Shown piece by piece: positions 37,296 to 62,093 of a DNA stretch of 64,000 bases (position 1 is its first letter; each line of letters starts with the position of its first letter). The position numbers and the translations under genes were made by a program. A model generated the notes under the pieces. It saw nothing but the letters and a program-made list of their open reading frames with translations, was not told the origin of the DNA and searched no databases. The DNA is taken from the NCBI GenBank assembly GCA_020161615.1, contig JAIUPD010000003.1:1-64000 (forward strand), given 5' to 3'. This DNA comes from Pseudomonadota bacterium. GTDB lineage: Bacteria; Pseudomonadota; Alphaproteobacteria; Rhodobacterales; Rhodobacteraceae.

Positions 37296-38273
37296 ATGCG
37301 TTTCGCAACGACAGCCCTCGGGCGGCTCTACGCCCTGCCCCGACAGCTTCCTGCCACCCTCGCCGCCCTCCTGCTGCCGACGCTGGCGCTGGCCGATCCC
37401 GTGCAGATCCCCGGGCCCGCCGGGCCGTTGGAAGCCGAGCGCGTCGCCGTCCCCGGGGCCGCGCATGCGCTGGTGATCATCCCGGGGTCGGGTCCCACCG
37501 ACCGGGACGGCAATTCCCCGGGGCTGGGGATGGGCAGCGACACGCTGCGCCTGCTGGCCGAGGGGCTGGCGGCCGAGGGCGTCGCCTCCCTCCGCATCGA
37601 CAAGCGGGGCTTCTTCGGCAGCGAGGGCGCCATCGCCGACCCCAATGACGTGACCATCGCCGCCTATGCCGAGGACGCGCGCGCCTGGGTGCGGGAGGCC
37701 GCCGCCCTCGCGCCCTGCGTCTGGCTGGCCGGGCATTCCGAGGGCGGGCTGGTGGCGCTGGCGGCGGCCCAGGACCCGCCCGAGGCGCTGTGCGGGCTGA
37801 TCCTGATGGCCGCGCCGGGGCGACCGTTGGGGCGGATCATGCTGGAGCAAGTCGAGGCCAACCCGGCCAATGCGCCGATCCTGGAGGAAATGCGCGGGCT
37901 GATCGAGGGGCTGGAGGCGGGACAGACGCGCGATCCGGCGACCGTCTCGGCGCCCCTGCAGGCGCTTTTCACCGAAGGGCAGCAGCGCTACATGATCGAC
38001 CTTTTCGCCCAGGATCCGGCGGCACTGGCCCGGGGCTGGGACGGCCCGGCGCTGATCGTGCAGGGCGACGCGGATCTCCAGATCACGCCCCGCGACGCCG
38101 AGGTGCTGGCCGAAGCGATGCCGCAAGCCCGGCGCCTGCCGCTGCCGGGCGGCACGCATCTGCTGAAAGAGGACGTCGCGGGCCAGCCCTTCGCCACCTA
38201 CACGGACCCCAGCCTGCCCCTGCATCCGGCGCTGGTGCCGGGGATCGCGGATTTCCTGGCCGGGGTGGAGTGA
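37296..38273 (+). CDS. Exported alpha/beta hydrolase
   Basis: 325 aa. Probable signal peptide to about residue 33 (LLPTLALA-D). The hydrolase fold has an oxyanion-side IIPGSGPTDRDG, nucleophile elbow GHSEGG near residue 148, acid in VQGDADLQI and late His in GGTHLLK. Resembles the COG1073/FrsA-like esterases. Substrate unknown. Confidence 0.88.
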   Translation: MRFATTALGRLYALPRQLPATLAALLLPTLALADPVQIPGPAGPLEAERVAVPGAAHALVIIPGSGPTDRDGNSPGLGMGSDTLRLLAEGLAAEGVASLRIDKRGFFGSEGAIADPNDVTIAAYAEDARAWVREAAALAPCVWLAGHSEGGLVALAAAQDPPEALCGLILMAAPGRPLGRIMLEQVEANPANAPILEEMRGLIEGLEAGQTRDPATVSAPLQALFTEGQQRYMIDLFAQDPAALARGWDGPALIVQGDADLQITPRDAEVLAEAMPQARRLPLPGGTHLLKEDVAGQPFATYTDPSLPLHPALVPGIADFLAGVE

Positions 38274-38316
38274 GGGACCACGGGCCGCTGCGCGCCGCGG
38301 CTCGGCGGGCCGTCCG

Positions 38317-38583
38317 TCAGTAGTGATAGCGGCACTGGGCGATTTCGAGCGCCTGCTCCGGCCCGCTTCCTGTCACCCGGTAGACCAGCCTGTCCGCCCG
38401 CGTGATTCGACGGGACCACCAGCCGCTCAGATCGCCCTTCAGGGGCTCCGGCTTTCCCGTCCCCTTGAAGGGCGTGCGCGACGCCTCGCTTATCAACGCG
38501 TTCAGACGTTCAAAGACCTTGGCGTCGCTGTTGCGCCAGTGGTGATAGTCCTGCCAGGCGTCGTCAGAGAAGATCAACTTCAT
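38317..38583 (-). CDS. yoeB: Type II toxin YoeB (ribosome-dependent mRNA interferase)
   Basis: 88 aa RelE-fold toxin that cuts mRNA in the ribosomal A site. The E. coli catalytic residues are matched: E46, R65, and the C-terminal His-Tyr pair as H87-Y88 after a four-residue insertion. Overlaps the antitoxin gene by 20 bases, so translation is coupled to it. Intact by inspection. Confidence 0.95.
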   Translation of the reverse strand: MKLIFSDDAWQDYHHWRNSDAKVFERLNALISEASRTPFKGTGKPEPLKGDLSGWWSRRITRADRLVYRVTGSGPEQALEIAQCRYHY

Positions 38584-38830
38584 CGTTCAGAGTTCGCTCC
38601 ATCCCCCGCCCAGCGTCCAGCTGAGCGATGGCTTCCCGCAGGCGTCGGGCGTTGACAGGAGAGTTCAGAAGATAGAGCGTTTCCTGAATCGCATCCCATT
38701 CTTCCTTCCCGACGACAACCACCGCCTCTTTGCCCGCCCGGGTGATCACGGTTTCGGTTTTGTCATGGATCGCGTGATCCATGACGGATTTGAGATGCTT
38801 ACGCGCATCCGTGTAGCTGACTATGTTCAT
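38564..38830 (-). CDS. yefM: Type II antitoxin YefM (Phd/YefM family)
   Basis: 88 aa. N-terminal DNA-binding domain (MNIVSYTDARKHLKSVMDHA, TVITRAGKEAVVVV, EWDAIQETLYLL) and an unstructured C-terminal toxin-neutralising tail. It represses its own operon in complex with YoeB. The ATG is preceded only by CCT and the heptamer repeat, so no normal Shine-Dalgarno is present apart from repeat-derived GAAG. Confidence 0.95.
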   Translation of the reverse strand: MNIVSYTDARKHLKSVMDHAIHDKTETVITRAGKEAVVVVGKEEWDAIQETLYLLNSPVNARRLREAIAQLDAGRGMERTLNDEVDLL

Positions 38831-38833
38831 AGG

Positions 38834-38933
38834 GTGCTTCGTGCTTCGTGCTTCGTGCTTCGTGCTTCGTGCTTCGTGCTTCGTGCTTCGTGCTTCGTGC
38901 TTCGTGCTTCGTGCTTCGTGCTTCGTGCTTCGT
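38834..38933. repeat. Heptanucleotide tandem repeat, about 14 copies, directly upstream of yefM
   Basis: GTGCTTC (GAAGCAC on the yefM strand) is repeated without a visible interruption over 100 bp, i.e. 14.3 copies, ending four bases before the yefM start codon. No frame through the repeat contains a stop on either strand, so it can be read as a seven-residue peptide repeat (EARSTKH in the yefM direction). A 7-bp unit shifts frame with each copy gained or lost. Confidence 0.97.
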
Positions 38934-38942
38934 CCGAGATAT

Positions 38943-38960
38943 AGTACAGCTTCCTGTACA
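38943..38960 (-). promoter_or_regulatory. Putative YefM-YoeB operator with TACTAT promoter element
   Basis: On the minus strand TGTACA and TGTACT lie 12 bp centre to centre as an inverted repeat (arms CTGTAC/GTACAG). E. coli YefM-YoeB binds paired TGTACA cores of similar geometry. TACTAT overlapping the second core is a possible -10 box, though I cannot find a convincing -35. A transcript from here would have a leader made almost wholly of the heptamer repeat. Confidence 0.65.
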
Positions 38961-39378
38961 TTTCCACCCGCATCCGCTCGATTTCCCGCCCGGCGTCATG
39001 ACGCTTGCCACAGGCTCCTCCCCTCCGACCAACACAATGACACGGCGCACCAAGAGCTCCACCACTTCGCGCGCCCCCACCTGGTGCATCCCGACCCCCG
39101 ACCATCCCCACACGCCCCTCCCCCGACGCCACGCTTGACAGAACCCTCGTCCGCCGCCATGGCTGCGGGCATGTTCGGGAACCAGACCCTCTTCAACCGA
39201 CGCGGACCCCGCCCCCAGGCGGCGGCTCTTCGGGCTGCGCGTCGGTCAGGGACTTCTGGCGTGGATACCTGCCTCTCGTAGGCACCCCAAGCAAAGCCCC
39301 ACCGATCCGCGTTCCTGAACCTCCGCAGCCCTCGGCTCCGGGGGCTTTCTTTTACCCGAACCCAGGAAGATCCTCACC
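38961..39378. other. Gene-free stretch between yefM operator and argC
   Basis: No frame here has both a ribosome site and family resemblance. It ends with the argC leader. The only structure I see is the hairpin listed at 39327-39353. Confidence 0.5.
39327..39353 (+). terminator. Hairpin with T-run 25 bp before argC: attenuator or end of an upstream RNA
   Basis: AGCCC (39327-39331) pairs with GGGCT (39342-39346), followed by TTCTTTT. The stem is short and the loop may pair further (CGG/CCG). No protein gene ends just upstream on this strand, so it would either attenuate argC or terminate a small RNA. Confidence 0.35.
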
Positions 39379-40356
39379 ATGAGCATTCGCGTCGGCATCG
39401 TCGGCATCAGCGGTTTTGGCGGCGGGGAAGCGCTGCGCCTGATCGCAAACCACCCCTCGTTCGAGCTTGTCTACGCCGCCGGCGACGGCAGCGCGGGCGC
39501 GCGCCTGATCGACCGCTTCCCCGGCGTCCCGGGGGCGCTGGCCGACCGTGTGATCCAGAAATGGGATCCCGAGGCCCTGCCGGACCTCGACCTCCTCTTC
39601 GCCTCGCTGCCCACCGGCCGGTCGGCGGACGCGCTGGCGCGTGTCCCGGCCAGCGTGAAGATCGTGGATATCGGGGGCGATCACCGCCATGTCGCGGGCT
39701 GGACCTATGGCCTGGCCGATGTCTGGCCCGACAGGATCAGGGGCAGCACCCGCATCGCCAACCCGGGTTGTTTTCCGGTGGCAAGCCTGACCGCGCTGGC
39801 GCCGCTGCTGCAGGCGGGACTGATCGGCACGGACAACATCCTGATCGACGCCAAGACCGGGATCTCGGGCGCCGGACGGGGCGGCGGTGACAGCCGCTTC
39901 GGTTTCGCCGAGACCAACGAAAACCTGATCCCCTACGGCCTGCTCAACCACGTCCATATGCCGGAGATGGCGACGACCATCGCCCAACTGGGCGGGGCCA
40001 GCGCCGCGGGGCTGGTGTTCACGCCGCATCTGGTGCCGATGACCCGGGGCCTCTTGGTCACGATCTATGCCCGGGGGCAGGCGACGACCGCGGATTGCCT
40101 TGCGGCGGCGCGCGCCTTCTATGCCGACCGGCCCTTCGTGCGGGTGACCGACCAGCCGCCGCAGACCAAATGGGCCAGCGGCTCGAACCTCGCCTTCCTC
40201 AGCTACGCCGCCGATCCGGCGCGCAATCTGGTGATGGCGCTGGGGGCGGTGGACAATCTGGGCAAGGGCGCGGCAGGCACCGCGGTTCAGAACGCGAATC
40301 TGATCTGCGGCCTGCCCGAAACCCTGGGGCTGGAGGGCGCGCCGGTCTGGCCCTGA
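39379..40356 (+). CDS. argC: N-acetyl-gamma-glutamyl-phosphate reductase (short type)
   Basis: 325 aa. Reduces N-acetylglutamyl phosphate to the semialdehyde in arginine synthesis. NAD(P)-binding GISGFGGGEALRL is at the N-terminus, the catalytic Cys is C131 in NPGCFP, and late HVHMPEM carries the active-site His. The internal SADF signature of many ArgC proteins is replaced by DIGGDHR, suggesting the less common branch. No other arg gene is nearby. AGGAAG before the ATG. Confidence 0.85.
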   Translation: MSIRVGIVGISGFGGGEALRLIANHPSFELVYAAGDGSAGARLIDRFPGVPGALADRVIQKWDPEALPDLDLLFASLPTGRSADALARVPASVKIVDIGGDHRHVAGWTYGLADVWPDRIRGSTRIANPGCFPVASLTALAPLLQAGLIGTDNILIDAKTGISGAGRGGGDSRFGFAETNENLIPYGLLNHVHMPEMATTIAQLGGASAAGLVFTPHLVPMTRGLLVTIYARGQATTADCLAAARAFYADRPFVRVTDQPPQTKWASGSNLAFLSYAADPARNLVMALGAVDNLGKGAAGTAVQNANLICGLPETLGLEGAPVWP

Positions 40357-59058: not shown

Positions 59059-59133
59059 GCGGGCGTAGCTCAGGGGTAGAGCATAACCTTGCCAAGGTTA
59101 GGGTCGTGAGTTCGAATCTCATCGCCCGCTCCA
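59059..59133 (+). tRNA. tRNA-Gly (anticodon GCC), copy 1
   Basis: 75 nt including encoded CCA. Acceptor stem GCGGGCG/CGCCCGC, D-loop TAGCTCAGGGGTAGAGC, anticodon loop CTTGCCAAG giving GCC, T-arm with TTCGAAT. Identical to the copy at 62019-62093. Confidence 0.98.
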
Positions 59134-62018: not shown

Positions 62019-62093
62019 GCGGGCGTAGCTCAGGGGTAGAGCATAACCTTGCCAAGGTTAGGGTCGTGAGTTCGAATCTCATCGCCCGCTCCA
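62019..62093 (+). tRNA. tRNA-Gly (anticodon GCC), copy 2
   Basis: Identical over all 75 nt to the copy at 59059-59133, including CCA. The flanking sequences differ beyond the gene ends. Followed after four bases by a strong terminator. Confidence 0.98.

Follow-up and report, generated by a model that had tools for sequence, protein, structure and literature searches.

A perfect heptanucleotide array ahead of yefM-yoeB, and an unrelated array at the same leader position in a relative from another genus

A perfect tandem array of the heptamer GAAGCAC lies directly ahead of the antitoxin gene of a yefM-yoeB toxin-antitoxin operon in a 64,000-nucleotide stretch of a Rhodobacteraceae genome (hereafter the window; the genome containing it is G000), between a conserved operator and the start codon, where it would form most of the mRNA leader. 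In a relative from another genus the corresponding leader is filled by an array of a different unit, and comparison of the two loci with their kin indicates that the two expansions struck one leader position independently. The sequences suggest that this leader is a site where length can vary, perhaps adjusting the output of the genes that follow.

Results

A YefM-YoeB operon with a repeat-filled leader

By sequence, the pair is a member of the YefM-YoeB family, with a YefM/Phd antitoxin gene followed by a YoeB toxin gene that overlaps it by 20 bp. Both proteins score above the gathering thresholds of their Pfam families (Table 1); the toxin also exceeds the cut-off of TIGR02116 (100.7 bits against 51.8), and the antitoxin falls below that of NF008499, the NCBIfam equivalog for E. 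coli-type YefM (73 bits against 121). The order on the minus strand is -35, operator cores, -10, GAAGCAC array, the three bases CCT, yefM ATG (38830) and yoeB. The tract, reported initially from the letters alone, is real: Tandem Repeats Finder (TRF) returned it with a period of 7, 14.3 copies, 100% matches and a score of 200, against 99 for the runner-up array in the 64 kb window.

Table 1. Features of the yefM-yoeB locus, in window coordinates.
Feature	Position	Strand	Details
yoeB toxin gene	38317..38583	-	88 aa; PF06769, E 1.7e-34; TIGR02116, E 3.9e-29
yefM antitoxin gene	38564..38830	-	88 aa; PF02604, E 2e-23
GAAGCAC tandem array	38834..38933	-	14.3 exact copies; nearly the whole predicted mRNA leader
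Predicted -10, TATATC	38938..38943	-	4/6 consensus matches
YefM-type operator, TGTACA-GGAAGC-TGTACT	38943..38960	-	Cores TGTACA (38955-38960) and TGTACT (38943-38948), 12 bp centre to centre
Predicted -35, TGGAAA	38961..38966	-	4/6 consensus matches; 17-bp spacer to -10

Comparison was made with a close YefM subgroup of 11 distinct loci, G010 included, in which YefM is at least 77% identical; these are represented by 13 records, three near-identical Cereibacter plasmids counting as one locus. The paired YefM-type cores named in the initial annotation are borne out, since (T/A)GTAC-N8-GTAC is present in all 13 records, and in the window the pair, of the TGTACA type and 12 bp apart, overlaps the predicted promoter. 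The same annotation had pointed to a TACTAT box overlapping the operator; TATATC, 17 bp from the -35, fits better as a -10 element. The -10 position has from 2 to 4 of 6 consensus matches over the 13 records (2/6 in G010), and the 17-bp operator is immediately preceded by TTGA in 12 of them and by TGGA in the window. A promoter consensus scan of 38200-39500, which demands T at the last -10 position, called none, and it is on comparative grounds that we place the predicted promoter around the operator. Transcription would then start approximately 7 nt past the -10, at the edge of the tract, and the modelled leader of about 105 nt would consist mostly of repeat, as had been proposed, provided that the predicted promoter is correct. 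The operator itself points to autorepression of the operon.

The locus has two protein families in common with yefM-yoeB of E. coli and axe-txe of Enterococcus, as well as TGTACA-type cores 12 bp apart, a spacing kept in many yefM-yoeB operons according to PMC7730913. The likeness to axe-txe, as described there, extends to one core lying in the promoter spacer and the second touching the -10 (PMC7730913). The window differs from both systems in having its leader filled by a 14-copy heptamer and in being without a good Shine-Dalgarno (SD) sequence; the main text of PMC7730913 uses neither the word leader nor Shine-Dalgarno.

Distribution of the repeat unit

Whether GAAGCAC is spread at random through the genome was checked with exact three-copy matches, of which there are 12, overlapping, in 4.87 Mb (26 contigs), every one inside the tract. 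Among 394 genomes of the family, own included, a four-copy match is confined to the window tract. When 544 kb of G000 (window included) and 297 kb of the related genome G403 were scanned for exact arrays no shorter than 28 bp and with 3.5 copies or more (period 2-40), three were found, namely the window tract, an array in the G403 yefM leader and one 28-bp array in G000; a lower cut-off (20 bp, 2.8 copies, period 5-40) added five short arrays in the G403 stretches and none in those of G000. Outside the two leaders, a sample of 861 kb from three genomes was free of exact arrays (period up to 40) that have two or more copies and span 60 bp or more, and relaxing the cut-off to 1.5 copies at 60 bp adds a single item, a 35-bp unit of 1.7 copies (61 bp) in G000. 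An origin of the tract in an RNA family was rejected, the gathering-score matches to Rfam in the window being two tRNAs only. These tRNA genes (59059-59130 and 62019-62090, plus strand) have equal Rfam scores and are about 3 kb apart.

In a collection of 84,980 genomes we found 101 stretches with four or more copies of GAAGCAC, in hosts that span many phyla (80 titled loci among the matches listed). It had been suggested that such tracts might recur next to toxin-antitoxin genes; the 101 loci do not place them adjoining YefM- or YoeB-like genes. In these loci, of at most 8 kb, profiles built from relatives detected no YoeB at E 0.01 and a single YefM-like match (L063), which lies approximately 5.7 kb away from the array; GAAGCAC was rejected as a motif linked to yefM-yoeB. 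Since the unit recurs in many bacteria, the recurrence of interest is that of the place and not of the unit. All frames through the repeat are free of stops, and a classification of these arrays by gene context was set aside, since a position inside an open reading frame (ORF) tells little.

One alphaproteobacterial metagenome-assembled genome (MAG), RIFCSPLOWO2_01_FULL_40_26 (MEMO01 contigs, within L025-L104), has 32 dispersed GAAGCAC arrays of 28-38 bp, which are spread over 26 of the 80 titled loci. Within 60 bp upstream of 11 of these 32 arrays lies an inverted GTGCTTCG-like partner, as is the case for 2 of 57 arrays from the other titled loci. The MAG arrays are reminiscent of a palindromic repeat family.

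A short version of the array in a sister species

Searching 60 genomes with the DNA of the locus gave six with a match, own included, and the only full-length match besides the genome's own was in the sister species G010 (78%); among 18 genomes of the genus, five matched, own included. The G010 leader reads CGAAGCACGAAGCACG, that is 2.3 copies, between the conserved operator and the conserved start. The expectation that copy number would differ between relatives is thus upheld by 14.3 copies in the window against 2.3 in G010, a difference between species, each represented by one genome. Because the window array is perfect, gain from a short seed is simpler than loss, and copies were probably gained in the window lineage rather than lost in that of G010.

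A second expansion in another genus

Relatives were collected by YefM searches of the family (19/394 genomes at E 1e-15, own included), the order (5/390 at 1e-33, own included), the genus of G612 (4/121, centre included) and plasmids (3 records at 1e-20). Matches in viruses, comprising three distant ones at 35% identity and one phage record at 58%, were set aside. The YefM of G403, which belongs to another genus, is 88% identical to that of the window, and its leader carries 7.1 exact copies of the 13-mer TCGTATCAGCATC, unrelated to GAAGCAC, between operator and start, so that an array of another unit occupies the same place. In G562, a relative of G403, the leader has 1.9 copies of a related 13-mer, with two positions different from the G403 unit, and the Cereibacter plasmid leaders have a single ACATCTCGCATCA stretch, similar to the 13-mer by eye. 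Arrays are absent from the leaders of G200, G612, G763, G778, G785 and G233. Genus searches around G403, G562, G233 and G200 recovered only the centre itself in each case (1/16, 1/6, 1/22 and 1/1), and the genus of G612 yielded three further subgroup members, all without arrays. On the three Cereibacter plasmid records (L145-L147), a further gene pair that looks like a toxin-antitoxin system stands after yefM-yoeB; one gene is annotated as MazE or hypothetical protein, the other as death-on-curing toxin.

Long arrays are therefore present in 2 of the 11 distinct subgroup loci and lacking in the other nine, which indicates that a long leader is not required. In the tree, the window with G010 (98/94) and G403 with G562 (99/98) form separate supported pairs; with their differing units, this identifies the two expansions as independent. 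Only the window and G403 have a long exact array among the 29 yefM upstream regions examined. The 861 kb sample puts a rough upper bound (95%) of about 3.5 per million bases on array density outside the leaders. Chance would then place approximately 0.02 arrays in the 28 other yefM upstream regions (200 bp each), where one was observed. The estimate is for orientation and does not amount to a test planned in advance, because the G403 array was found by inspecting relatives.

Translation start and leader folding

Pairing with the 16S tail was calculated on the Shine-Dalgarno principle. As the initial annotation had noticed, the window yefM leader lacks an ordinary ribosome site, its predicted pairing being a weak -0.7 kcal/mol, and values from -3.5 to +1.2 kcal/mol were obtained for 10 of 11 subgroup leaders, the exception being G233 (L129) with SD-like pairing of -7.0 kcal/mol. 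More distant relatives (L130-L141) pair at -6.5 to -11.2 kcal/mol in all 12 cases, and others more distant still (L142-L144) have almost no leader, with values from +0.6 to -5.0 kcal/mol. In the tree, SD-bearing L130 is placed next to the Cereibacter locus, on a long branch, so that loss of the SD follows the tree imperfectly. Of L010 and L131 only the SD values were used, their leader lengths having been measured from a second operator match.

Joined to the first 51 nt of yefM, the window leader has a weaker predicted fold than every one of 200 shuffles (z +2.4). Predicted accessibility of the start region is 0.41 with one heptamer copy and 0.57 with two, then stays within 0.49-0.51 at the nine copy numbers modelled between 3 and 20; the 13-mer gives 0.67 at one copy and 0.55-0.60 over six copy numbers between 2 and 12. 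Modelling of copy number thus gave no structural switch at the yefM start above three copies. From this flat response it follows that copy number would act, if at all, through length and not through a folding switch, and that the nearly constant predicted structure does not itself supply a mechanism for an effect.

Genomic neighbourhood

Upstream of argC (39379), a 40-codon arginine-rich small ORF (MAAGMFGNQTLFNRRGPRPQAAALRAARRSG...) lies in 39159-39346 on the plus strand, and a terminator-like hairpin (39327-39346; shuffles average 1.0) stands after it and before argC. The ORF is conserved in G010, G009 and G006 and also beside argC of G202, from another genus, where it has five arginines in a row; with the peptide as query, 2 genomes among the 394 of the family gave a match at E 0.001, the window's own being one of them. 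Together, the ORF and hairpin look like an arginine leader-peptide attenuator. G009 and G006 (L011, L012) have argC and its leader in common with the window, at 80-81% identity. Within 39110-39378, similarity of G009 and G006 to the window stops at 39132 and 39110 respectively, where the toxin-antitoxin side begins, and from this break the yefM-yoeB segment looks gained or lost beside argC.

Discussion

The reading that we prefer, to which we give an even chance, is that slipped-strand mispairing, a mechanism that changes tandem-repeat copy number, expanded the repeat of an SD-less leader from a seed of roughly two copies, and that changes in length have at most a graded effect on expression. 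Slippage would have acted inside a weakly folded 5' leader of a presumably autorepressed operon; were transcription to begin at the tract edge, copy number would set leader length in steps of 7 nt, from approximately 21 nt in the sister species to approximately 105 nt in the window, counted from 8 nt past the operator. Such a change would leave the promoter, the operator, the yefM frame and the predicted structure of the start site unaltered, and could cause at most a graded shift in mRNA stability or in translation of antitoxin and toxin, not an on/off response.

The graded effect is proposed by analogy with hmw1A of Haemophilus influenzae, where more 7-bp repeats give a longer 5' UTR with less transcript and protein, and where the authors left open the route from repeats to lower expression (PMC8262952). 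Both cases would have a heptanucleotide array altering the length of a 5' UTR before one gene, as predicted for the window, but hmw1A is an adhesin gene of a pathogen with variation shown among isolates, whereas the window has a toxin-antitoxin operon, another unit and a difference between species only. Upstream repeat copy number also changes between strains at dop, lpdA and cysG of Mycobacterium tuberculosis (PMC12817950); the units there are promoter elements of 54-58 bp, in contrast to the short unit downstream of the predicted promoter in the window. In the open-licence literature, no title among the matches listed concerned a repeat array in the leader of yefM or another antitoxin gene, which is not proof of absence, and a search with the repeat letters returned no paper.

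Nearly as likely as tuning is neutral expansion, whereby a leader that is SD-less, little structured and little constrained tolerates slippage, and copy number has no effect. The barely shifting accessibility of the start, the nine subgroup loci that manage without long arrays and the many unrelated genomes with GAAGCAC arrays away from YefM/YoeB-like genes all accord with neutrality; it sits less well with the growth of two different units in one leader when the 861 kb sample contains no other exact array that reaches 60 bp with two or more copies, although the other non-coding DNA in that sample is presumably under little constraint as well.

The familiar examples of contingency loci are surface and restriction genes. 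As in loci of the hmw type, the 5' control region of one gene in the window contains a short tandem array without mismatches, and the locus may work like one of them. A bolder extension, which we think improbable though worth stating, is that the subgroup gave up its SD in favour of an expandable, weakly folded leader, that repeat number became a heritable and reversible dial on the output of antitoxin and toxin, with clonal populations holding cells at different settings, and that separate lineages built the dial from different seeds.

Considerably less probable is on/off phase variation, in which slippage would toggle yefM-yoeB through the context of ribosome entry or through a reading frame that overlaps the yefM start. 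The initial annotation had drawn attention to a 101-codon frame (38827-39132, minus strand) that is free of stops through the repeat and ends as ATGA on that start, and each step of 7 nt would shift its frame. The frame exists, but a role for it did not survive comparison: the matching frame in G010 has stops, on which ground translational coupling was rejected, and in the window the frame has its first codon upstream of the predicted promoter. The second codon of yefM, AAC, accounts for the ATGA overlap as a side effect. Nor does the suggested switch through ribosome entry agree with a predicted accessibility that hardly moves over the nine copy numbers modelled between 3 and 20.

That a mobile or genome-wide repeat element landed ahead of yefM is very unlikely; the 101 stretches in the large collection and the 32 arrays that a single MAG contributes to the titled loci lend it some colour, but the genome itself has no other three-copy match, the remaining 393 family genomes have no four-copy match, and the two-copy seed of G010 is exactly in place. 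In type III (ToxIN) systems a structured repeat RNA neutralises a ToxN-type toxin, and in the window tandem repeats do lie directly before a toxin-antitoxin pair, but a repeat RNA acting as antitoxin can hardly be entertained here, with a YoeB toxin paired with a protein antitoxin, a leader that folds worse than its shuffles, a weakly structured 7-nt unit unrelated to that of G403, and no array in 9 of 11 subgroup loci.

The expansion of two unrelated repeats at a single leader position amounts to a natural replicate. If repeats in the leader do tune a type II toxin-antitoxin operon, then growth arrest or tolerance would be heritably variable inside a clone.
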